Shown: one piece after another, positions 5,968-37,838 of the stretch
How positions within the stretch are numbered: position 1 is the first letter of the stretch
Layout of the letters: each line of letters starts with the position of its first letter
DNA from: Marinomonas sp. TW1
GTDB taxonomy: Bacteria > Pseudomonadota > Gammaproteobacteria > Pseudomonadales > Marinomonadaceae
DNA length: 64,000 nucleotides
NCBI RefSeq assembly: GCF_001625355.1
Contig: NZ_JSEE01000009.1
Coordinates: 124,001 to 188,000, forward strand
Direction of reading: 5' to 3'
The notes under the pieces: generated by a model
What the model saw: the letters and a program-made list of their open reading frames with translations, nothing else
Told to the model about the DNA's origin: nothing
The model's database searches: none
Translations under genes and position numbers: made by a program

Positions 5968-7161
5968 ATGGACGTTGCTTTTCCGGACTATGATTATGAT
6001 GCTGATCTTTTGTCGTCGTCAGACCAGCACAAAACCGATTTATTTTTATTCAATTCCAGTCAAAATTTGGTACGAGCTAGAGGCGTGAGTCAAACGTTAG
6101 AGACGCCTCTGTCAGCCAAGACCTTTCAGCATGATGTTCAGAGAGTCTTTGACGCTGAAAAAATGAAAGGCATAGATAACCCTATTTTAGTGGGCGCTAT
6201 TCCATTTGATTTGGATCAACCATGTCACCTTTTAGCCCCTAAATGGTCTGAAAGAGTTAAGCCCTTCTCTGCTAATTTCCCCGCCTTTAAAGACAAAGAT
6301 TTTGCACATCACGTTCTAAGCCATTCGTTTACACCAGATCACAATAACTTCGTGAAAATGATTGAAGAGGCTTTGGTGACACTTGGTCACGATGATTTAA
6401 AGAAGATCGTATTGTCAAAAACCTTAGATTTGACCCTTGATAAGTCCGTAGACATCCCTCGTTTATTAACCAATATCATGGGACAAAACCCGAATGCCTA
6501 TCATTTTAGTGTGCCGCTTGAAACGGGCATTCTGATTGGTGCGAGCCCTGAACTGTTGATCAGGAAAGAAGGTAGCACGCTTTATTCTAACCCGTTAGCA
6601 GGCTCTGCTAAGCGCAGCAAAGATCAGCAAGAGGATCGACGAGTTTCACAAGTATTGCAGCAATCTAAGAAAGATCAATATGAACATCGCATTGTAGTGG
6701 ATGCCATTCGTAGTGCACTAATTCCTATGGTTCAGTCAATGAAGCTAGAGGAACAGCCAAGTCTTATTTCCACCCCGACGATGTGGCATTTATCAACGCA
6801 GATTGAAGCCATATTAGCGAGTGACTCAGGGCTGAGTATTTTTGATGTGATCAAGCGGCTGCATCCAACACCAGCCATGTGTGGCACACCTACAGGTTTA
6901 GCACATGACCATATTGCGGCATTAGAACCACATCAAAGAGGTTTCTTTAGTGGTTTGGTTGGTTGGTGTGATGCGCAAGGTAATGGTGAATGGGCCATTG
7001 CGATTCGCTGTGCTGAAGTGGCCAGTAACAAGGTGAGACTGTTTGCTGGTGCAGGTGTGGTACCGGATTCTTGTGTAGAAAGTGAATGGCGAGAAACCAG
7101 TGCAAAAATGCAAACCATGATTAATGCTTTTGGTATAAAGGATTTTAACAATGACGATTGA
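5968..7161 (+). CDS. entC: Isochorismate synthase
   Basis: EntC-type enzymes convert chorismate to isochorismate, the first committed step to 2,3-dihydroxybenzoate. The 397-residue product shows the chorismate-utilising enzyme motifs: IVLSKTLDL, GASPELLIRKEG, NPLAGSAKR, VVDAIRSAL, HPTPAMCGTP, GFFSGLVGW and FAGAGVVPDS followed by EWRET. The ATG at 5968 was chosen over the in-frame TTG at 5956 because GGAGG lies 5 bases before it. The gene heads the entC-E-B-A operon and its end overlaps entE by 11 bases, so the two are translationally coupled. The enzyme is cytoplasmic and Mg2+-dependent by family. Confidence 0.95.
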   Translation: MDVAFPDYDYDADLLSSSDQHKTDLFLFNSSQNLVRARGVSQTLETPLSAKTFQHDVQRVFDAEKMKGIDNPILVGAIPFDLDQPCHLLAPKWSERVKPFSANFPAFKDKDFAHHVLSHSFTPDHNNFVKMIEEALVTLGHDDLKKIVLSKTLDLTLDKSVDIPRLLTNIMGQNPNAYHFSVPLETGILIGASPELLIRKEGSTLYSNPLAGSAKRSKDQQEDRRVSQVLQQSKKDQYEHRIVVDAIRSALIPMVQSMKLEEQPSLISTPTMWHLSTQIEAILASDSGLSIFDVIKRLHPTPAMCGTPTGLAHDHIAALEPHQRGFFSGLVGWCDAQGNGEWAIAIRCAEVASNKVRLFAGAGVVPDSCVESEWRETSAKMQTMINAFGIKDFNNDD

Positions 7162-8773
7162 GTTTACGGCTTGGCCAGAAGAATTTGCGACAGCATACCG
7201 GGAAAAAGGTTACTGGACGGATCGTCCAATGACGGATTTGATCGATCATGCTCCTAAAGAGAATCTCGCGGTTTTGTGTGGTGAACGCCAATTTACCTAC
7301 GCTGATTTAGGCCAAAAGTCTCAGAACCTAGCCGGTTATTTGCATCATCTAGGTCTTAAACAAGGTGACACGGCACTGGTACAGTTGCCTAATATTGCTG
7401 AGTTTTATGTTGTGTTCTTTGCGTTGTTGCGGATTGGAGTTGTACCAGTTAATGCTCTATTTAGCCACAATGAAAATGAGTTGTCCGCTTACGCAAAACA
7501 GATCAAACCAAGCCTTGTTATCGCCAGTCAACAGCACAGGTTATTTGCAAATGATCAATATTGGTTAACCCTGCAACAGCAAGAGTCTAGCCTGAAGCAC
7601 ATTTTATTGGCCGGAGCTGGCTGGGGGGCATCCTTGGATGAAGCAATGGCAACCTCGTCACAACAATTGGTTGACCACCCTAATGCACCAGACCAAGTGG
7701 CATTTTTCCAGCTCTCAGGTGGTAGTACAGGAACACCAAAGCTGATTCCAAGAACCCATAACGATTACTTTTTCAGCATACGTCGCAGTGTTGAAATATG
7801 TGAATTCTCCTCATCGACTGTGTATTTGTGCGCTTTACCTTGTGCTCATAACTTTCCCATGAGCTCTCCTGGTGCTTTCGGTGTGTTCCACGCTGGTGGC
7901 ACTGTGGTAATGGCCCCTAATCCGGAAGCGAACGTTTGTTTTGATTTAATTGAACGTCATCAAGCCAATGTTGTGGCATTAGTGCCACCGGCGTTGGCTC
8001 TTTGGCTGCAAGTTGCTGTGGATCGGAAGTCCTCTTTAACCTCATTGTCCTTGGTTCAAGTAGGAGGGGCGAAATTAAGTGAAAGCATCGCAAGACAAGT
8101 TCCCGAGACGTTGGGTTGTCAATTGCAGCAAATCTTAGGCATGGCAGAAGGGTTGGTGAATTACACGAGATTGGATGATGACTTTGAAATCATTGCTAAG
8201 ACTCAGGGTTACCCAATGTGCTCAATGGATGAAGTGAAAGTAATTGGGCTGAACGGCCACCCCGTTGCTCCTGGTGAAGAGGGCGAGTTGGTGACACGTG
8301 GGCCATACACCATTCGAGGTTATTACAAGGCAGCAGAACACAATGCCAAAGTGTTTGACCGCGAGGGCTTTTATCATACCGGGGATCTGGTAAGCCAAGA
8401 TACGAATGGCTATCTAACCGTTGTTGGCCGAGATAAAGATCAAATTAACCGTGGTGGTGAAAAAATAGCGGCAGAAGAGATCGAAAATCTATTACTTAAG
8501 CACGAACACATTTTACACAGCGCCCTTGTTGCTATGCCGGACAGTATTATGGGTGAAAAAACCTGTGCTTTTGTTGTGCCTAGGCATGATGGATCAAAGT
8601 TGAAAAGTGTACAACTGAGAAAGTTCTTAAGAGGTTTTGGTATTGCTGATTATAAGGTGCCTGATCGCTTTGAATTCATCGATGCTTTACCGCTAACACC
8701 AGTAGGGAAACCTAATAAAGTGGCGTTACGAGACGTTATTCGTCAGCGTCTTCAGTTAAATAATGTGTCATAA
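7151..8773 (+). CDS. entE: 2,3-dihydroxybenzoate-AMP ligase
   Basis: The enzyme activates 2,3-dihydroxybenzoate with ATP and loads it on the aryl carrier domain of EntB. The 540-residue adenylating protein shows the P-loop FQLSGGSTGTPKLIPRTHNDY, the aryl-acid pocket CALPCAHNFPMSSPG (an Asn in place of the Asp that binds the amino group of amino acids), GMAEGLVNYTR, YHTGDLV, the hinge GRDKDQINRGGEKI and the catalytic lysine in PVGKPNKVAL. These fit EntE/DhbE rather than a salicylate ligase, although that distinction is weaker. The start overlaps the end of entC. Confidence 0.95.
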   Translation: MTIEFTAWPEEFATAYREKGYWTDRPMTDLIDHAPKENLAVLCGERQFTYADLGQKSQNLAGYLHHLGLKQGDTALVQLPNIAEFYVVFFALLRIGVVPVNALFSHNENELSAYAKQIKPSLVIASQQHRLFANDQYWLTLQQQESSLKHILLAGAGWGASLDEAMATSSQQLVDHPNAPDQVAFFQLSGGSTGTPKLIPRTHNDYFFSIRRSVEICEFSSSTVYLCALPCAHNFPMSSPGAFGVFHAGGTVVMAPNPEANVCFDLIERHQANVVALVPPALALWLQVAVDRKSSLTSLSLVQVGGAKLSESIARQVPETLGCQLQQILGMAEGLVNYTRLDDDFEIIAKTQGYPMCSMDEVKVIGLNGHPVAPGEEGELVTRGPYTIRGYYKAAEHNAKVFDREGFYHTGDLVSQDTNGYLTVVGRDKDQINRGGEKIAAEEIENLLLKHEHILHSALVAMPDSIMGEKTCAFVVPRHDGSKLKSVQLRKFLRGFGIADYKVPDRFEFIDALPLTPVGKPNKVALRDVIRQRLQLNNVS

Positions 8774-28971: not shown

Positions 28972-30417
28972 CTATACCGTAAAACACCAAAAATTAATGC
29001 TGTATGGACTGATCAGGTTGAGCTTGGATAGTTTTGGAAAATCACTGAGCTTCACCTTACCGTTGCGGAATTTGGGTCGTATGCCATTGATGCGAACTTT
29101 TTTGGCGGTTAAGGAATCGGCTGTAATTTCAAAGCGTTTCTTTTTCAAGCCAAAGTGGTGGCAGTGAATCATTCGAAATTGCGATGTCATATTGATGATG
29201 AGAAGTGTGCATTTGCCCGTTTTTTTGGTGTTATGACAATACACTAAAATAGACGAGTCACTGCTTTTTACCTGATAGACTTCATTGCCCATGAGTTTTT
29301 CCCATAACCAGCTGACCCAAAAATCTGGATTGGGTTTGAGCGTTTGTCGGTTAATCAAAGCGTAATCGCCTCCAATCAGGCTTTGTCTAATCATCACTTG
29401 TTGACCAAGCTTTGCGCCTCGTCCTAGTTGGTCGGCCCACCAAAAAGAGGAAATGAAGCGATCAGACAGTTTGGCTTGACCACCACATTGTGCCGAGCCG
29501 CTTTCACCTGTCCACACTTGCGCTTGAGTCTGGTATTGGCGGCGATAGTCATCCAGTTTTATAGCGTACTTTTCAAAGCTATCCAGTGCGTTTAATGACA
29601 GTAAGTTACGAGGTGTGGCGGCACGGGTTTTGACTGGTGAACGGCTGCTCTGGAACGGGTAATAGTGCCAGTCGACTATGTCTAATGTTTCCGTTAAGTT
29701 CTCTAAAAATGGCACGGTGATGTTGCTAAAGGGTTTAACCGCTTCGCCAATCCTTGGCCAAAAGGCGCTGCCTGGCCCGGCGACTAAACTGGTTGGACTG
29801 TGTTGTTTGATGCAGCGAATGAATCGGTCATAATCTTTAGCCAGTTTTTTGGCACTGGGCTGAGCCGTGATGCCATGAAAGGCCCAGTAAGCATTGAGTT
29901 CGTTGCCCAGTTCACAAACGGCGATGTGTTGATTGTTTTGTTGGCTGTAGGTGAGTAAGTCGACGACCTCGTTTGCTTGCCATTGACCTTGTAGACGGCG
30001 TTCAAATAAGCCGTATTTAAAGGTGAACATAAGCCATAGATCATTGCGTTGGCAAAAATCATGTAGCTGGTGCCAGGTGACTTGAGTTAATGGCAGTGCG
30101 TCTTGGCTGGGGGCATTGTGGCTAGTGAAATAGTGGAGTTTATCCGCTTCTGATCCGCCCACGCGGACATAGGAAGGCCCAAGAGATTGGACCAGTTTGT
30201 CGAGTTTCTCTTGTTGTAAATCCAGTGGCGGTGTCTTTTCTGTGCCTAACCCTTGTTGAGTGCCTTTGCTGCCTTCCCACCAAAATCCCCCTGCGAGAAC
30301 GGAGATATCAATTGAAAAGGATAAATACCTAGGGCTGATGCAATGCATGGGGGTCGGTGAGGTGAGACTGACCGACACCTGTTTGTTGAGTCGCTTGATG
30401 TTCGTTTGGCGGCCCAT
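28972..30417 (-). CDS. Heparanase-like glycoside hydrolase, family 79 type
   Basis: The 481-residue protein has a (beta/alpha)8-barrel pattern of the heparanase kind: an opening RYLSFSIDISVLAGGFWW, then GPSYVRVGGSEAD, the acid/base segment CELGNELNAYWAFHG (Glu in LGNE) and the nucleophile segment QVWTGESGSAQCGGQ (compare GETSSAYGGG in human heparanase). Family 79 enzymes cut glucuronide bonds in heparan sulfate and related glycans. The visible N-terminus has no signal peptide. The ATG at 30417 is preferred to a TTG at 30444, but a later start is also possible. The gene lies upstream of fepB on the same strand with no terminator between them, though the Fur-like site separates them. Exact substrate unknown. 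Confidence 0.8.
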   Translation of the reverse strand: MGRQTNIKRLNKQVSVSLTSPTPMHCISPRYLSFSIDISVLAGGFWWEGSKGTQQGLGTEKTPPLDLQQEKLDKLVQSLGPSYVRVGGSEADKLHYFTSHNAPSQDALPLTQVTWHQLHDFCQRNDLWLMFTFKYGLFERRLQGQWQANEVVDLLTYSQQNNQHIAVCELGNELNAYWAFHGITAQPSAKKLAKDYDRFIRCIKQHSPTSLVAGPGSAFWPRIGEAVKPFSNITVPFLENLTETLDIVDWHYYPFQSSRSPVKTRAATPRNLLSLNALDSFEKYAIKLDDYRRQYQTQAQVWTGESGSAQCGGQAKLSDRFISSFWWADQLGRGAKLGQQVMIRQSLIGGDYALINRQTLKPNPDFWVSWLWEKLMGNEVYQVKSSDSSILVYCHNTKKTGKCTLLIINMTSQFRMIHCHHFGLKKKRFEITADSLTAKKVRINGIRPKFRNGKVKLSDFPKLSKLNLISPYSINFWCFTV

Positions 30418-30522
30418 TGAGCGCTTTAAATTGATGGCAAGCAAGGCGTTATTCCGATCTTTGGTTGCCTATAGACTGCCGGATAAATATGACAGTTTCG
30501 TGATCGGGCCAAACTTGTGGTT

Positions 30523-31202: not shown

Positions 31203-32354
31203 ATGTCTAAGGATTACAAAATGGGATTTTCCGTACCACTTTATCGTGGACCTTTCCAAAACAATGGGGCGTCTCCTTGGTTCGCTCGAGTTGGCTTTGG
31301 CACGCCTGCGCAATCTCTGAAGATCTGTTTTGATACAGGCAGTGACTTTAATTGGGTGACTTCAAGTTTGTGTGCCAGCGACACTTGCCATCATTATGGC
31401 GGTGAGCAATTTAACTTTCAGGCATCAAATACTTTTCGTTGGTTAAGTCAGGAGCCACAGTCGGTTAGCTTTGGACCTTGGGGCACCATGGAAGTAGAAG
31501 CTGGGCAAGATATCGTTAGGTTGCAGCCTTCGTCACCTACCTCAGAGATTGATCTCATCAGCGATCTCTATTTGGCTCAATCGTACAGCAGTCGGCATTT
31601 TGCTGAGCTTGATTGGGATGGCGGCATCGGCTTGCCCAGCGTGGTGACTTATTCCGCAAAAGTGGGGGGCTCGACAGAGCAAGCGGCATCCTTTCACTTT
31701 TTTGAAAGTCTTATTCAACAAGGCAAAGTGAATCCAGATTCACCTTTTGTCGGCTTTTTGACAGACATTCCAGAACGACAAGGACGATTAGAGTTTGGTT
31801 TGCTTAATCAAGCTTATCGTGACAGTCGCGAATATTTGTTTTTGCCTTGGCAAGAATATCAAGCGAACTATCTTTGGACTACGCCATTGCTGTCTCTCTC
31901 AATGGGGGGAAAGCACTTGTTAGAGGCCAAAGACGGTTTCTTTTTTGCTCTCGACTCTGGTTCTTCTCAGTTTAAAGGCGATGAAAATTTGATGAATTCA
32001 TTGCTGTCGTTGGCAATGGATAAAGAGACTTTGTCGATTCAAATTGGGGAAACGGATAAGGGAGAAGCGGGCGAAATAACCGTAAATTCGACATTATACG
32101 ATGTGCTCATCGAAGAAGGGCAAGATAAGGGGCAAGTGATTAGTCAATTTGATCCTATGGAAGGCGCTGATGACATTGCTTTAGTTGGTTCCATCATCAT
32201 GGATCACCTTTATACCCTTTATCAATATAAAGCTGAGCTGGTGGATAAAGTTTGGCAATTAAAACCCCTTGGTGTGTGGATTTTTAACAAACCGGATGGG
32301 CCGAAAATTATTACCAGCCGACAAAGTAAACGGGCAAGTCTGTTTGATGCATAG
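31203..32354 (+). CDS. Pepsin-type aspartic protease (family A1) homologue
   Basis: The 383-residue protein has the two-lobe layout of eukaryotic pepsins: WFARVGFGTPAQSLKICFDTGSDFNWV with catalytic Asp44, and FFFALDSGSSQFKG with Asp251. The N-lobe flap maps to FGPWGTM (residues 90-96), where the usual flap tyrosine is not evident. There is no signal peptide, so the protein would be cytoplasmic, as reported for the shewasins of Shewanella. There is no propeptide either. AAAGGA precedes the start. Thirty-six bases downstream on the same strand is the avidin-like gene, so the two form an operon. Bacterial pepsin homologues are rare and were described from a few marine genera, including Marinomonas as I recall. 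Confidence 0.88.
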   Translation: MSKDYKMGFSVPLYRGPFQNNGASPWFARVGFGTPAQSLKICFDTGSDFNWVTSSLCASDTCHHYGGEQFNFQASNTFRWLSQEPQSVSFGPWGTMEVEAGQDIVRLQPSSPTSEIDLISDLYLAQSYSSRHFAELDWDGGIGLPSVVTYSAKVGGSTEQAASFHFFESLIQQGKVNPDSPFVGFLTDIPERQGRLEFGLLNQAYRDSREYLFLPWQEYQANYLWTTPLLSLSMGGKHLLEAKDGFFFALDSGSSQFKGDENLMNSLLSLAMDKETLSIQIGETDKGEAGEITVNSTLYDVLIEEGQDKGQVISQFDPMEGADDIALVGSIIMDHLYTLYQYKAELVDKVWQLKPLGVWIFNKPDGPKIITSRQSKRASLFDA

Positions 32355-32390
32355 GCTTTTACAGCAATGGTTTATCTTAAGGAGTAAAGA

Positions 32391-33155
32391 ATGGCGTTCA
32401 TTTTACATGGTGTTTGGCAAAACGAGTACGGTTCTAGAATGACCTTAGATGTCAGTGAAACGGGACAAATTGTCGGTGAATATCAGTCCACCACAGGCGC
32501 GTCGGGCACCTATTTTCTCGTTGGACATTGCCGTCCACAAGATCCCGATCCTCAACAAGGTCAGCCGTTGGTCTTATCCATTTTCTGGCGACCATTTGAT
32601 GTTGAAGCTGAGGACGATGGTGTTCATTGGGTGTCGACTTATTGCGGGCAATTAAACGCGAATGGGGAGATGACGGTGATCAATACTTTGCTAACAACCA
32701 CGCCTTATCAAGCCTTTGAACCAGGGGATTACATTGATAACTTGGTCTTTAAGAAGTCAGACAGTGTCACTGTTTTAGCGGATTCAACAGCGTGGCAAGA
32801 AACCTCTCAACAGAATGACAATCCAATTAATGGTGTTTGGTCGTCCGATGATAAGACCATCCAGTTAGCGCTGGCGGTGCAGAATCAAAAGTATGGTGTG
32901 TTGGCTGGGGAACTGTCTTATCAAGGTGAAAAAATTCAGCTCATTGGTTTCACGGACACCTATGCGAATAACAATATATTACAAAGTCTAACGCTAAGTG
33001 GATATATGCTGACGTCTTTACAACCTATTTCGTTAGTTGGCCGGATGGATGCGACGAGAAGTCGTTTGTCTTTATCGCGATGGCTGGCCAATGGAACAGA
33101 TAGCAATAATGCGTATTTTCAAGCGAATTCAATGAACTGGCAATTCGCGAAGTAA
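32391..33155 (+). CDS. Tandem avidin-like domain protein
   Basis: The 254-residue protein appears to hold two avidin-type beta-barrels. Domain 1 (about 5-125) starts HGVWQNEYGSRMTL and continues GQIVGEYQSTTG; its Asn11, Ser15, Tyr31 and Ser33 line up with streptavidin biotin ligands Asn23, Ser27, Tyr43 and Ser45, while the later tryptophans are altered (the WSGQ motif is YCGQ). Domain 2 (about 144-254) starts INGVWSSDDKTIQL and ends SRWLANGTDSNNAYFQANS, like the avidin end (W..TSGT..ANAW), but lacks the polar ligands. No signal peptide is visible. It follows the pepsin-like gene by 36 bases, with AAGGAG before the start. Biotin or another small ligand could bind to domain 1; that is inference. 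Confidence 0.78.
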   Translation: MAFILHGVWQNEYGSRMTLDVSETGQIVGEYQSTTGASGTYFLVGHCRPQDPDPQQGQPLVLSIFWRPFDVEAEDDGVHWVSTYCGQLNANGEMTVINTLLTTTPYQAFEPGDYIDNLVFKKSDSVTVLADSTAWQETSQQNDNPINGVWSSDDKTIQLALAVQNQKYGVLAGELSYQGEKIQLIGFTDTYANNNILQSLTLSGYMLTSLQPISLVGRMDATRSRLSLSRWLANGTDSNNAYFQANSMNWQFAK

Positions 33156-33192: not shown

Positions 33193-35532
33193 ATGAAGTT
33201 GAGCCATACCTATGATAAACATGAGCACGATCAAACCATCTTAGATTGTTTTCGACAGCTTTGGCGTTATTCTGCAGACTTAATGTTCATTATGTCGGTT
33301 GAAGCGGACGGTGAATTTGCTCTTTATGATAATAATCCGGCTTCCAAAAAAGTCATGGGGCTGGAGCAAGATTCAACCATTCATCGATTAAATTTGCGTG
33401 AGCAGTTCGGCGATGAAATGGCTGAGCAAGTGTATGCCACATATCATGAAGTGCTTGCGGCAGGCACCCCTATTTCTGTCGAGCAAAATGGTGTGCGAGG
33501 GGATGGCTCTAAGATTTATTTTGATACCCTTTTTGTGCCCATCTATGATGCTTCTAATGCGCCTATTTTTGTGTGCGGTGTGAGTCGTGACATTACCAAA
33601 ATCAAAGACGCTGAAAAAGTTGCTCTTCAAGCCAATGAAAAGCTTACTGAGTACAGTCTTGCTTTAGAGTCAGTTAATCATGATCTAGATCAGAAAGTAC
33701 GAGAGCGAACAGCGGAACTTGAACGTGCTAAGTTGATTGCTGAAGAAGCTTTAGAAGCGAAGTCTTCTTTTGTTGCGCGCATGAGTCATGAAATTCGAAC
33801 CCCAATCAATGCGGTGATTGGACTCAGTTATTTATGTCTAAAAACGCCTTTAAATAAAGAGCAAACCGACTCTCTTTCAAAAATACTATCGGCTGGTGAA
33901 TCCCTACTGGGAATCGTTAATGATGTCTTGGATTTTTCGAAAGCAGAAGCGGGGAAAATGACCCTTGAAGAGAGCCCTTTCCATATTCATAGTCTGCTAG
34001 AGCATGCCATTAATATTAATGCGGTTCAGGCAAAAGCAAAGCAAATCAGCCTCAGTAGTGATGTATCGCCCTATATTCCAGCAAGTCTCTTAGGGGATCC
34101 GTTAAAGATTCAGCAACTATTGGTGAATTTGATCACCAATGCCGTCAAGTTTACTGAACGTGGTGGCATTACGGTTCGCCTGTCCTGTTCACCCATATCG
34201 GAACAAGAGATCCTGTTAACTGGAGAAGTAATTGATACTGGCATTGGTATTTCAGTAAAAGATCAAGCCCGTTTGTTTCTGTCGTTTCAGCAGGCAGATG
34301 ACAGTATCACGAGGGTGTTTGGTGGCACTGGATTGGGGTTGGCTATCTGCCAACAAATATGCCATTTAATGAATGGTTCGATCTCGGTTGAAAGTGATAT
34401 AGGTAAAGGTGCGACATTTCGCTTTAATATACCATTGAAAATACATCAAGAAACCTTGGCGCAATCGAAATCGTCAATGAAAACCAGTGTGACGATTCCA
34501 GATTGTCAGGCTTGTAAAATACTTTTGGTGGAAGATAACCTAATTAATCAAAAGGTCATGCTAGGTTATTTAAATGAAACGAAAGCGCATGTTGTGATTG
34601 CAAATAATGGGCAAGAAGCGATCGATAAAGTATTGCACGAACATTTTGATTTGATCTTGATGGATATTCAAATGCCAGTCATGGACGGGCTAACGGCTAC
34701 TCAAAAATTGCGAGAGTTGGATGCCAGTAAACACATTCCTATTTTTGCGATGACAGCCCATGTTTCCGATGATGCAAAATGTAAATCCGCTCAGGCTGGC
34801 ATGAATGGACATCTGGATAAACCGATTGACAAGAATGAATTGTACAAAATTTTACAAATTCACTTACAAAAGGTTAAGCAATCTAATTCATTGGAATGTA
34901 AGAAAAAAATATTATCCGATCAGTTTTCTCATGAGCAGGAAGTATTGTCTAATATTTCGGCTATCGATACATTAGATGTTTGGCACGCTATTGAAAAACT
35001 TGATGGTAAATACGAACTTTATTTAGATTTACTTATATCTTTTTATGGAAGGTATAAGCACTTTTCATTTAGTGGTGTGTCTCAATCTGACACCTTACTT
35101 AATATTCATTCACTGAAATCCAGTTTGGCCTATATTGGCGCGATTAAGCTTTCTAATGATTGTGCTGAGTTAGAGCAAAGTGCAGCGATGAAGAGCATTT
35201 CTTCTCAACAGTTGAAAGAAATTGAGTCCAGTATTAATGCCTTAATTACGGCATTAACGGGGAAATTATCACCACGTTTAAAAGATGGTGAATTGCAAGT
35301 TAATCTTGATCAACAACAAATAGTGATTGAAAAGCTCGAGAACATTCATAGCTTATTAATACAGTCCGATTTTGTTGTAGAGGGTCAATTACAAGATGTC
35401 CAGCAAATGCTGATGGGCACCAAATACGCTTTATCAATCGAAAATATACTTTACTCTGTTTCGAGCATTGAATTTGAGTATGCCGCCTCTCAAGTAGCCG
35501 AACTCATGTTTGATTTGCAAGGTGATAAATAA
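33193..35532 (+). CDS. Hybrid sensor histidine kinase (PAS-HisKA-HATPase-REC-Hpt)
   Basis: The 779-residue protein has a PAS-type sensor (about 15-140, ending CGVSRDITKIKDAE), a coiled linker, a HisKA domain with phospho-His199 in MSHEIRTPINAV, an ATPase domain (NLITNAVKF, DTGIGIS, GGTGLGLA), a receiver with Asp491 in LILMDIQMPVMDG, and a C-terminal Hpt-like domain with His639 in HSLKSSLAYIGA. No membrane segment is visible, so it senses a cytoplasmic signal. It follows the avidin-like gene by 37 bases and overlaps the next gene by one base, so it should phosphorylate the GGDEF response regulator encoded there. Confidence 0.93.
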   Translation: MKLSHTYDKHEHDQTILDCFRQLWRYSADLMFIMSVEADGEFALYDNNPASKKVMGLEQDSTIHRLNLREQFGDEMAEQVYATYHEVLAAGTPISVEQNGVRGDGSKIYFDTLFVPIYDASNAPIFVCGVSRDITKIKDAEKVALQANEKLTEYSLALESVNHDLDQKVRERTAELERAKLIAEEALEAKSSFVARMSHEIRTPINAVIGLSYLCLKTPLNKEQTDSLSKILSAGESLLGIVNDVLDFSKAEAGKMTLEESPFHIHSLLEHAININAVQAKAKQISLSSDVSPYIPASLLGDPLKIQQLLVNLITNAVKFTERGGITVRLSCSPISEQEILLTGEVIDTGIGISVKDQARLFLSFQQADDSITRVFGGTGLGLAICQQICHLMNGSISVESDIGKGATFRFNIPLKIHQETLAQSKSSMKTSVTIPDCQACKILLVEDNLINQKVMLGYLNETKAHVVIANNGQEAIDKVLHEHFDLILMDIQMPVMDGLTATQKLRELDASKHIPIFAMTAHVSDDAKCKSAQAGMNGHLDKPIDKNELYKILQIHLQKVKQSNSLECKKKILSDQFSHEQEVLSNISAIDTLDVWHAIEKLDGKYELYLDLLISFYGRYKHFSFSGVSQSDTLLNIHSLKSSLAYIGAIKLSNDCAELEQSAAMKSISSQQLKEIESSINALITALTGKLSPRLKDGELQVNLDQQQIVIEKLENIHSLLIQSDFVVEGQLQDVQQMLMGTKYALSIENILYSVSSIEFEYAASQVAELMFDLQGDK

Positions 35533-36467
35533 TGGCAATGACCAATCAACAACGCGTTTTAGTCATTGATGACGAAAAAATTAATTTGAAAGTTATCAGC
35601 GATATTTTAAGAGAAGATGTAGAGGTTATTCTTGCCGTTAATGGTGAGCAAGGCATTCGTAAAGCCGTTGAGTTGCAGCCTGATCTTATTTTGCTCGATG
35701 TGCTTATGCCTGGTATGGATGGTTATGACACCATGGCACGTCTTCGTCATGATGTCAGAACCAGTGCCATTCCGGTGATTTTTATCACCGCCTTGAATGA
35801 TTCGAGTCATGAAGAAAAAGCCCTCTTGATGGGCGCTTGTGACTACATACAAAAACCGCTTTATACCAATATTGTACAGGCTAGGGTGCGTTTGCATTTG
35901 CAGCTGACTAAACAAAGGAAACTGTTAGAAGAATTGGCTAACATTGATCCGTTAACGTCGTTGGCCAATCGTCGTAAATACGAAGACGTCATTTCATCAG
36001 AATGGCAGTCCGCGATAGAGCATCAAGAATGCTTGTCTCTCTTGGTGATTGATATTGATAACTTCAAACACTTCAACGATTGTTATGGCCATGCGACAGG
36101 CGATAAGGTTCTTAAACAGGTGGCGTCTGTTTTGGCTATGCAGGTCAGTCCTGGTGAAGGCTTGGTGGCGCGTTATGGTGGCGAAGAATTTGTCGTGCTA
36201 CTGCCGCGTTTTTCTCAGCATGAGGCAACGAAAGTAGCGCATCAGTGTATGTTGGAGATTGAACGTCTTAATCTCAGTTACCATCATGGTGGTCAAACGG
36301 GTCAAGTGACTGTCAGTGTCGGAGGGGCGACATGCTATCCGCAGAATTCAGATTTACTCTGCGAATTTTTTGATCGTGCTGACAATAAGCTTGTTCAGGC
36401 AAAAAATACGGGAAAGAACAAGATATTATGGGATGTGTCTGATAAATTAGACGTCCCAATGAAGTGA
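35532..36467 (+). CDS. Response regulator with diguanylate cyclase domain
   Basis: The 311-residue protein has an N-terminal receiver (VIDDE at the acidic pocket, Asp56 in LILLDVLMPGMDG, Thr and Lys of the switch in FITAL and IQKPL) and a C-terminal GGDEF domain with an intact GGEEF active site (about 216-220). The inhibitory RxxD site is absent (PGEG in its place), so product inhibition is not expected. It makes cyclic di-GMP when phosphorylated, by family. Its start codon overlaps the stop of the hybrid kinase by one base. Confidence 0.94.
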   Translation: MAMTNQQRVLVIDDEKINLKVISDILREDVEVILAVNGEQGIRKAVELQPDLILLDVLMPGMDGYDTMARLRHDVRTSAIPVIFITALNDSSHEEKALLMGACDYIQKPLYTNIVQARVRLHLQLTKQRKLLEELANIDPLTSLANRRKYEDVISSEWQSAIEHQECLSLLVIDIDNFKHFNDCYGHATGDKVLKQVASVLAMQVSPGEGLVARYGGEEFVVLLPRFSQHEATKVAHQCMLEIERLNLSYHHGGQTGQVTVSVGGATCYPQNSDLLCEFFDRADNKLVQAKNTGKNKILWDVSDKLDVPMK

Positions 36468-36512
36468 TAGGCTTCGTTACATTCGCAACGATTGAATGAT
36501 AAATTAGTCAAA

Positions 36513-37838
36513 ATGAATTTAAATAGTACCAACCCGTTACACGGTTTAGATGTGCATCCGTTGCGAGATTCTCTCTATGACGAACTGCACTCTCGACCTT
36601 TTCAGGTGATTTCCAGCCCTGCTCGCATCAGTTATTTGGCGATTATGCTCGACAGTCAGCAAAAGCAGACGGAGTTTGAGCATTTTTGTCTACTGCACCA
36701 ATCCTTCGACCTTACACCGCCACAGCACGACAGTGCTTGTATTGAAGTGGATTTCGGTCCGTTCATGATTCGACGTGACAAGCATCTCGAATTTATTTCT
36801 TACATGATTAGCACCCATCAGATAACAGAAGACTTTGGGGTGTTTGATCAAGATGCCTTGTCTTGCTTGCCGAGTGCTTGGCTGTCTGAATTGCCTGGTA
36901 AGGTGATGGTCGCATTTCATGTGGCGGTTGAAGACGCGATCACCAAGGCTGAACCTGATCTAGCCGAGGTTAAACGTCATTTTGAAGGCATGCGAATGGT
37001 GGGCAGTCGACCGCAAAATGGCGATGTTCAAGTCTGGACCAGCTTTAAACTGCACAGTGATGGTTGTGGGCGCTTCCTGATTTATAATAAGAGAATGAGT
37101 GACAGCCAGTTAGGTCGCTTGGTGCAGCGATTAGTAGAGATTGAAACCTATCGTTTGATGGCGTTATTAGCCCTGCCTATGGCTCGTCAATACAATGCTG
37201 AGCTGGTTAATATGGATAATCAATTAGCTCAAACCACGGCTAGGTTATCAGATGATAATGCGCAACTGGATGAAACCTCTTTGCTCGCAGAGCTGATTGA
37301 TATGGCCGCTTGGGTCGAGGCGACCAGGGCCAAAGTGGCGTTTCGTTTTAGTGCAGCAAAAGCCTACCATGAACTGGTGTTAAACCGTTTAGAAGAGTTA
37401 AAAGAAGATGAGGTGTCGGGGCATCTGACCATCACCGAGTTTATGACTCGACGTTTAACCCCAGCGGTAAGAACGTGTGTGACGACCAGTGATCATTTAG
37501 AAAGTTTGTCTACGCGAATAGATCGGGTCTCAGATATGATGCGAACCCGAGTGGATATGTCGATTCAGTCGCAAAACCAAGAGTTACTTTCCTCAATGGA
37601 TCGACGTTCAAAAATACAATTGGCGATGCAGCACACAGTAGAAGGTTTGTCTGTGGCCGCCATTAGCTACTACAGTGTGGGCTTGCTGAAATTTTTAATA
37701 GAAGCGGCGTACGATAAAGGCTTTCAATTTGATAAAAGCCTTGTGATTGGATTGACTGTGCCGCTTGTTGTGGCGGGTGTTTGGTTAGCAACACGAAAAA
37801 TTCATAAGCGCTTTTTGCGTTTGGCGAAAGAGAAATAA
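36513..37838 (+). CDS. DUF3422-family membrane protein
   Basis: The 441-residue protein begins HPLRDSLYDELHSRPFQVISSPARISYLA, the mark of the DUF3422 family found in marine and alpha/gammaproteobacteria. The long middle part is helical (about residues 200-370), and the C-terminus has two hydrophobic helices (VAAISYYSVGLLKFLIEAAYDKGF and LVIGLTVPLVVAGVWLA) with a basic tail, so it is probably anchored in the inner membrane. No function is established that I know of. The ATG at 36513 was chosen; a TTG at 36492 is in frame and neither has a clear ribosome binding site. It may be co-transcribed with the two-component genes. Confidence 0.7.
   Translation: MNLNSTNPLHGLDVHPLRDSLYDELHSRPFQVISSPARISYLAIMLDSQQKQTEFEHFCLLHQSFDLTPPQHDSACIEVDFGPFMIRRDKHLEFISYMISTHQITEDFGVFDQDALSCLPSAWLSELPGKVMVAFHVAVEDAITKAEPDLAEVKRHFEGMRMVGSRPQNGDVQVWTSFKLHSDGCGRFLIYNKRMSDSQLGRLVQRLVEIETYRLMALLALPMARQYNAELVNMDNQLAQTTARLSDDNAQLDETSLLAELIDMAAWVEATRAKVAFRFSAAKAYHELVLNRLEELKEDEVSGHLTITEFMTRRLTPAVRTCVTTSDHLESLSTRIDRVSDMMRTRVDMSIQSQNQELLSSMDRRSKIQLAMQHTVEGLSVAAISYYSVGLLKFLIEAAYDKGFQFDKSLVIGLTVPLVVAGVWLATRKIHKRFLRLAKEK

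Follow-up and report, generated by a model that had tools for sequence, protein, structure and literature searches.

A bacterial pepsin homologue encoded beside a tandem avidin protein in Marinomonas and beyond: a possible ligand-guided protease unit

What would a pepsin-type protease and an avidin-type protein, both lacking a leader, do together in a bacterium? This question is raised by a gene pair in the window analysed here, a stretch of 64,000 nucleotides from Marinomonas sp. TW1 (contig NZ_JSEE01000009.1, positions 124,001 to 188,000 of the forward strand). On the plus strand of the window, a homologue of A1 (pepsin-type) aspartic proteases of 383 amino acids (31203 to 32354; PF00026 with E 1.4e-17 and 64.6 bits, the cut-off being 19.9) is followed by a tandem avidin protein of 254 amino acids (32391 to 33155; PF01382, E 6.1e-9, 36.7 bits against a cut-off of 24). 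The 36 bases between them carry AAGGAG (32379 to 32384), by sequence reading the likely ribosome-binding site of the avidin gene; the window holds two genes and not one chain. The answer proposed here is a tentative one: the two proteins may work as a unit, with the avidin recognizing a ligand that carries a ureide and thereby guiding or gating the protease.

A preliminary description of this locus, made from the sequence alone, had named the two reading frames and their spacing, and these positions as well as both family matches were verified. It had also stated that the pepsin homologue lacks a signal and a propeptide and the avidin a signal. By eye this is what is found: the pepsin homologue begins with MSKDYKMGFSVPL... 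and neither a hydrophobic leader nor a stretch of propeptide length precedes its domain, and an N-terminal hydrophobic leader is not seen in the avidin protein. Since a leader is absent, the cytoplasmic site assumed for the pair is likely in the window; it is not general, as two fused relatives show an apparent signal peptide.

The pairing itself is not new, because fusions of A1 peptidases with avidins have been reported among the "Extended" and beta6 bacterial avidins (Laitinen et al., 2021; PMC8033661), and the earlier statement that no described system of this kind was known is not supported. The same two families are joined there, and the Pseudomonas veronii fusion listed in that paper was also met here (locus L062). 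In contrast to the two genes of the window, however, these are single chains. The parts of its main text that were covered mention neither a neighboring pepsin gene nor hydantoinase clusters. Within the open-access literature (subscription journals were outside the scope), no report was found of the split operon, the second avidin barrel or single-chain dimer, the hydantoinase link or the GGDEF link, and neither avidin with hydantoinase nor avidin with hydantoin and operon was found in combination. A broad search for single-chain, tandem or natural avidins returned no natural tandem avidin by title or abstract start among the matches listed.

Distribution of the pair and its fused and separate forms

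The closest named relatives are found in Marinomonas. Among 48 genomes of this genus, a pepsin match is present in 16 and an avidin match in 17. A near full-length pepsin gene occurs in 15 of them, and in all 15 the avidin gene lies directly downstream on the same strand, at a distance of 3 to 55 bases where an ATG start is taken; a full-length gene of one kind without the other was seen in none of the 48. In one of these genomes (G023), the avidin gene leaves the end of its contig and resumes on another one, and the pair and the kinase gene behind it meet across a contig break. Two further genomes harbor remnants: G032 retains 39 N-terminal residues of the pepsin and 65 C-terminal residues of the avidin, and G030 only avidin fragments with stops. 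This fits a joint loss of both genes. The ratio of nonsynonymous to synonymous substitution rates, which was measurable in two close genome pairs, was 0.11 and 0.22 for the pepsin, 0.10 for the first avidin barrel and 0.20–0.21 for the second. Pepsin, avidin and both barrels are under purifying selection in these pairs.

A pattern scan derived from the Marinomonas pepsins over 84,980 species genomes gave 41 loci, nine of them in Marinomonas, at which the avidin barrels were located with hidden Markov models (HMMs) built from the Marinomonas proteins. Both barrels directly follow the pepsin in 37 of the 41 loci, including 28 of the 32 outside Marinomonas. The preliminary description had named absence of the pair from all other genomes as a finding that would speak against it; instead, the pair recurs in other genomes, adjacent or in the same chain. 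Avidin is the second partner in 37/37 scan pairs; a Sphingomonadales metagenome-assembled genome (MAG) has an additional one upstream, so that double avidin genes flank the pepsin (L071, 4015–4800 and 6130–6942). The pepsin group is rare, since it was found in 4 of 299 genomes sampled across the phylum, and the avidin profile matches 2 of 369 genomes of the class, both counts including the window. One of the 41 loci lies outside Pseudomonadota by title, an avidin-less pepsin at 893–2047 of L070 in a MAG labelled Bifidobacteriaceae, which may be a binning error.

The 37 paired loci comprise 20 with separate genes and 17 with one chain. Separate genes are found in Marinomonas, Vibrio Of7-15, Motilimonas, Psychromonas, Enterovibrio, Celerinatantimonas, Aliagarivorans, Sphingomonadales and one MAG. 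Among these loci, L039 is truncated where its contig ends, and L053 and L076 each have an interruption in one gene. In the former of these two, from Celerinatantimonas diazotrophica, the avidin gene is the interrupted one (6088–7234), and the pepsin, kinase and GGDEF genes are open. The 16 uninterrupted single chains belong to Pseudomonas (13) and to Vibrio (L052, L072 and L073); the remaining one, from Vibrio albus (L044), has a stop around 6204 at the start of barrel 1, which points to a broken fusion or to an error in the sequence. In the pepsin tree, which has 36 rows, 32 of them with a fused or split label, and in which 10 of the 33 inner branches are open, the state needs at least four changes, and also four if the interrupted L044 is left out. 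Repeated switches between fused and separate genes are a classic sign of proteins acting together, and are no test of contact. By this reasoning, the pepsin and the avidin would act together.

Readthrough of the stop codon as another way of joining the two proteins was considered and rejected, since the avidin frame is in phase at several loci and out of phase at others, and an ATG stands ahead of barrel 1 in all 19 separate avidin genes checked. A phage or plasmid origin is also not favored: the window pepsin was unmatched in 50,697 phage and 72,556 plasmid records, and scans of viral contigs, which used few conserved peptides only, did not confirm relatives of either protein. On plasmids the avidin matched once, in a Novosphingobium replicon that carries a hydantoinase cluster and gave no pepsin match.

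Judged by eye, an apparent N-terminal signal peptide is present in two fused pepsin-avidin-avidin proteins (L091, 8592–10730; L130, 8770–11055) and in two pepsins without avidin (L077, L078), and was not seen in the other proteins of the pepsin alignment described below, the window protein included. These four form one side of the tree and look like a secreted branch of the family.

The protease homologue and the tandem avidin

By sequence, the best solved relatives of the window pepsin are pepsinogen and pepsin (E 4e-13). Its active-site motifs are DTGS (residues 44–47) and DSGS (251–254), with the catalytic Asp44 encoded at 31332–31334 and the catalytic Asp251 at 31953–31955. Conservation was read from an alignment of 30 of the 42 pepsins, from which similar ones and the interrupted L076 were omitted (12 in total) and which the secreted fusions L091 and L130 stand outside. 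Both catalytic aspartates, their glycines (G46 and G253) and S255 are invariant in 30/30, as are FGxWG in the flap, the first two residues of WDGGIG and, in the second psi-loop, LVGS; the middle residue of the first motif is Asn in L077 and L078. For the fused Vibrio homologue L072, a full bilobed pepsin was predicted, which superimposes on tick cathepsin D (5n7q) with Z 31.8 and a root-mean-square deviation (rmsd) of 2.8 over 311 residues. The first pepsin disulphide pair, Cys57/Cys62, is kept in 15/15 aligned Marinomonas proteins despite their apparent cytoplasmic location.

A protein of the same genus and family has been described before: Mmwyl1_1642 of Marinomonas sp. MWYL1 shares the Phe in the flap, Ser303, the first Cys pair and the lack of a signal peptide with the window protein (Rawlings and Bateman, 2009; PMC2761423), and in the text of that paper the words "avidin", "operon" and "neighbour" are absent. 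The shewasins A and D of Shewanella are likewise bacterial A1 proteases, and by the title of PMC4814920 shewasin D is expressed in vivo and localized inside the cell; in this article no word begins with "avidin". They belong to another group according to PMC2761423, where the Marinomonas protein is 15.5% identical to the one from S. denitrificans and the tree separates it from the Shewanella and Colwellia proteins.

The downstream protein had been described as a double avidin. Pfam sees the first half only (residues 5–100), and streptavidins are its best solved relatives by sequence (E about 1e-4). A profile-profile comparison of both halves with hhalign gave a probability of 94, E 2.2e-8 and a score of 45, whereas none of 30 column shuffles scored above 6.9 and the reversed half scored 2.4; furthermore, in the distant fused relative L080 the barrel-1 HMM weakly matches the second half (E 0.0016). 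AlphaFold2 predicts two barrels with a mean local confidence (pLDDT) of 91.7 and a template modelling score (pTM) of 0.90. When Foldseek hits were re-ranked with this two-barrel model as query, the best PDB matches by far were the engineered single-chain dimeric streptavidins 6s4q and 6s50 (VIA Z 27.2, rmsd 2.4–2.5, 224 of 254 residues, model 2–254), and ordinary streptavidin chains reached Z 12.0 or less (11–12) over barrel 1, in keeping with the eight-stranded barrel of the avidin family. Thus, the profile comparison and the predicted structure agree on two barrels, of which barrel 1 comprises residues 1–124 (32391–32762) and barrel 2 residues 143–254 (32817–33152). In this model, the second half is a degenerate second avidin barrel, in which, by inspection, the ligand residues of barrel 1 are lost. 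Due to the end-to-end match to the engineered dimers, the protein looks like a natural single-chain pseudo-dimer. It shares two avidin barrels per chain with them, but the engineered form was made by man from two streptavidin copies, in contrast to the degenerate barrel 2 found here. The Marinomonas avidins have been noted to carry about 150 extra C-terminal residues, which were reported as conserved and lacking an identifiable domain (PMC8033661); this extension of the Extended avidins corresponds to residues 125–254 of the window protein and is identified here as the second barrel.

In streptavidin, the contacts to biotin, which we take to be N23, S27, Y43, S45 and D128 at the ureido ring, W79, and S88, W92 and W108 at the tail end, allow the pocket to be compared position by position. 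A phmmer alignment places N11, S15, Y31 and S33 of the window protein at N23, S27, Y43 and S45, and W66 at W79; D116 was assigned to D128 by inspection, since it lies beyond the aligned stretch. All six residues are identical in 29/29 homologues of an alignment of 29 of the 39 avidins, in which ten (similar ones and the interrupted L053) are omitted and which L091 and L130 stand outside. A separate alignment of the Marinomonas avidins comprises 14 of 15, G023 being omitted as split over two contigs. All five ureido contacts are among the 16 invariant positions of barrel 1, for which P is 1.9e-5 if they were randomly placed. The tail end differs. The S88 position is Trp80 in 29/29, the W92 position (84) is Y, L or M, and the W108 position is not Trp in 29/29 (L, I or M at 100 and V, L or I at 101). 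The end of the pocket that would recognize a ring appears to be kept, and the end for the side chain appears to be remodelled. Such a pocket would suit a lactam or a cyclic ureide different from free biotin, and biotin itself may also be the ligand.

Two kinds of gene neighborhood

In the window, the same-strand run extends beyond the pair through a hybrid histidine kinase with PAS, HisKA, HATPase, REC and Hpt domains by Pfam (779 amino acids, 33193–35532) and a REC-GGDEF diguanylate cyclase (311 amino acids, 35532–36467), whose gene overlaps the kinase stop by one base. The kinase is the next gene after the pair in 15/15 pair-bearing Marinomonas genomes (14 and the window), and REC-GGDEF is present in 13/15 (12/14 and the window). 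Across the 41 loci, neighbors were assigned by tblastn with named neighbor genes, and Pfam separated REC-GGDEF from PAS-GGDEF. The kinase directly follows the pair in 14 loci, six of them outside Marinomonas (four Vibrio, Celerinatantimonas and Aliagarivorans), and in 12 of these 14 it is followed by REC-GGDEF. A PAS-GGDEF gene lies directly upstream of the pepsin in five of the 41 (Motilimonas, Psychromonas, Enterovibrio, Aliivibrio and Vibrio Of7-15). Hence, diguanylate cyclase genes stand beside the pair in two clades, as different genes on different sides.

A GH79-type glycosidase (PF03662; window 28972–30444, minus strand) adjoins the pair in most Marinomonas genomes and also its remnants in G032 and G030. 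A DUF3422 protein (36492–37838) comes after REC-GGDEF in many Marinomonas genomes, including the pair-less G032 and G030, and is probably a matter of genus synteny. A promoter scan gave 16 compared to 14.8 in shuffles, which is no excess, and a terminator scan gave 8 compared to 5.8 (standard deviation 2.3), nothing decisive.

The second neighborhood is a hydantoinase cluster. HyuB lies within the fetched stretch at 17 of the 41 loci, some cut by its end. In Pseudomonas the order is a LuxR-STAND regulator, HyuA, HyuB, sometimes an M24 Xaa-Pro peptidase, a protein that resembles an outer-membrane channel (by eye, unmatched by Pfam), an Asp/Glu/hydantoin racemase, a major facilitator superfamily (MFS) transporter and the pepsin-avidin fusion; in Sphingomonadales it is a TonB receptor, HyuA, HyuB, pepsin and avidin. 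Among 249 Pseudomonas genomes, a full avidin is present in 12 and a pepsin in 10, fused in all ten; this count excludes a weak match (G891, E 6.9e-4) and takes G681 and G877, which look like one genome, once. HyuA and HyuB lie within the same 13–20 kb as the full avidin in 10 of the 12, the exceptions G939 and G985 having no HyuB in the genome, and in nine of these ten HyuB was found as a single copy genome-wide. Among 296 Sphingomonadales genomes, four match the avidin (three full-length, and G992 partial with two stops), and all four carry HyuA and HyuB within the same 20 kb; in the avidin/hydantoinase stretches of G1168 and G992 a pepsin was not seen. The annotated Novosphingobium plasmid NZ_CP039697 encodes avidin, LuxR regulator, TonB receptor, racemase, HyuA, HyuB and Xaa-Pro peptidase in a row, and since it is 95% identical to the stretch of G1168, the two count as one case. 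The avidin-less pepsins of L077 and L078 also lie among HyuB, racemase and TonB receptor, with an NCS1 permease in L078.

A gene of the M24 Xaa-Pro peptidase family was seen in two hydantoinase-avidin clusters (L119, 4030–5415; L156, 25706–26896) and would fit the gap in others. The M24 family also includes creatinase, and the protein might act on a ring-opened ureide.

Function of the pair and rival explanations

How could these parts work together? The pepsin-fold protease and the pseudo-dimeric avidin would be one functional unit with the avidin as its ligand-binding part. Barrel 1 would recognize its ligand by the cyclic-ureide end; this ligand would resemble biotin (biotin itself, a hydantoin or a related lactam) and could be free or linked to a peptide. 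Barrel 2 would stand in for the second subunit of an avidin dimer. Binding of the ligand would then deliver the bound peptide to the protease or switch the protease on. In Pseudomonas and Sphingomonadales, the unit may be part of clusters for uptake and breakdown of such a compound. Its joint encoding with the PAS hybrid kinase and the diguanylate cyclase in Marinomonas and Vibrio makes a part in signalling probable there. The sequences show the pairing, the switches between fused and separate forms, the conserved catalytic aspartates and ureido pocket, the tandem barrels and the gene neighborhoods; physical contact, protease activity, the identity of the ligand and the guiding or gating step are all inferred. 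The gene context argues for cyclic ureides or lactams as the ligand class, as an association and not as a proof. The preliminary description had offered cleavage of a ligand-bound or biotinylated partner as an example of a shared role; with the ureido contacts kept, the tail end altered and hydantoinase genes as neighbors in other lineages, a different cyclic ureide or lactam is at least as good a candidate as biotin. A narrower form of the proposal is a more doubtful one, namely that the single-chain avidin is re-tooled to bind a cyclic ureide that is not biotin, such as a cap formed by a hydantoin or lactam, and that it guides or gates the protease, serving as the catabolic recognition part in Pseudomonas and Sphingomonadales and feeding a cyclic di-GMP signalling unit in Marinomonas and Vibrio. 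If this were true, it would to our knowledge be the first case of a pepsin addressed by a ligand and of an avidin whose physiological ligand is not biotin.

Several observations weigh against the proposed unit. The pepsin stands without the avidin in four of the 41 loci, all of them MAGs (L051, L070, L077 and L078), in whose genomes no such avidin was found elsewhere. Conversely, lone avidins occupy the same place in the same hydantoinase cluster in G968 (L119) and G756 (L120), and pepsin-less avidins occur in hydantoinase clusters of one Sphingomonadales lineage (L154 and the 95% identical L156) and in that of the interrupted L155, so that neither partner strictly needs the other. The model of the fused pepsin-avidin reaches a pTM of 0.64, by which no fixed interface between the two parts is predicted. 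The kinase is intact where the pair is lost (G032 and G030) and occurs without it (G007 and G028), which means that kinase and pair can part. By eye, the two secreted fusions (L091 and L130) seem to differ at the position of D116, and their genomes (G426 and G499) each have one HyuB, on other contigs. The genomes of L077 and L078 carry four and six HyuB copies, so its nearness there means less. PF02538 (HyuB) is unmatched in the whole genome of the window, and the pair therefore does not serve HyuB in Marinomonas. Finally, the hydantoinase loci of Pseudomonas look orthologous and thus represent few independent events. To these the doubt about the protease itself has to be added: the position of the flap Tyr75 is Phe in 30/30 (Phe90 in the window), and the MWYL1 protein was judged probably inactive, since the hydrophobic-hydrophobic-Gly motifs were not found (PMC2761423). 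The same source regards Phe at the flap as a common replacement in the family, with the alignment uncertain here. In the deeper alignment, the second motif (LVG) is recovered and invariant in 30/30, and the first aligns near WDGGIG, which makes a loss of protease activity less likely.

It is nevertheless conceivable, if unlikely, that the pepsin fold is no longer a protease and that both proteins bind a small molecule, in which case the pair would sense or store a ligand on behalf of the neighboring catabolic or signalling genes. The flap Phe, the doubt in print and the avidins without pepsin in the same clusters would fit such a role, but one would not expect both aspartates to persist in an inactive enzyme, and D44, G46, D251, G253, S255 and the LVG are invariant; moreover, another peptidase-family gene (M24) is present in some clusters. 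An explanation we consider equally unlikely leaves the protease active and makes the avidin its inhibitor or folding partner, as a stand-in for the propeptide, where the ligand would be a signal that releases the protease and no part of the substrate. The missing propeptide of the window pepsin, the constant order of the two parts with switches between fused and separate forms, and the signalling genes adjoining the pair in two clades agree with this idea. It is difficult to reconcile with avidins retained without a pepsin in several hydantoinase clusters, with the four loci that have a pepsin and no avidin, with one fusion of reverse order reported in Flexibacter (PMC8033661), and with the fused model, which gives no confident interface.

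The avidin might also act as proposed for bacterial avidins in general, namely by sequestering biotin in a system for competition or defence, with the protease freeing biotin from biotinylated proteins. Membership in the avidin family and the intact ureido site speak for this, and a carbon-nitrogen hydrolase (PF00795), a family that includes biotinidase and N-carbamoylases, adjoins one Pseudomonas locus. A defence role has also been suggested in PMC8033661. However, the leaderless window proteins could not be a secreted biotin trap, in 29/29 Trp is missing at the W92 and W108 positions and present at the S88 position, and among the neighbors scanned with Pfam or NCBIfam no biotin gene was named; this makes biotin sequestration quite improbable. 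Least of all is a mere hitch-hiking of unrelated genes to be expected, which were inherited together and do no joint work. Adjacency in Marinomonas alone could reflect shared ancestry, the kinase is likewise kept without the pair, and avidin and pepsin each stand alone in some relatives. Already disfavoring this explanation to a very large extent are the occurrence of the pair across Marinomonas, Vibrionaceae, Psychromonas, Celerinatantimonas, Pseudomonas and Sphingomonadales in differing surroundings, the at least four changes between fused and split forms, and the purifying selection on both genes.

Returning to the proposed unit of an avidin that guides or gates a protease, the pair joins two questions, the role of bacterial pepsins and the ligand of leaderless bacterial avidins, and its neighbors (hydantoinase, racemase, LuxR-STAND regulator and diguanylate cyclases) point to a ligand class that can be tested. 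Furthermore, an avidin dimer that occurs naturally as a single chain, with a conserved and a degenerate barrel and a pocket remodelled at its tail end, would be a useful scaffold, since a comparable single-chain form so far had to be engineered from streptavidin.

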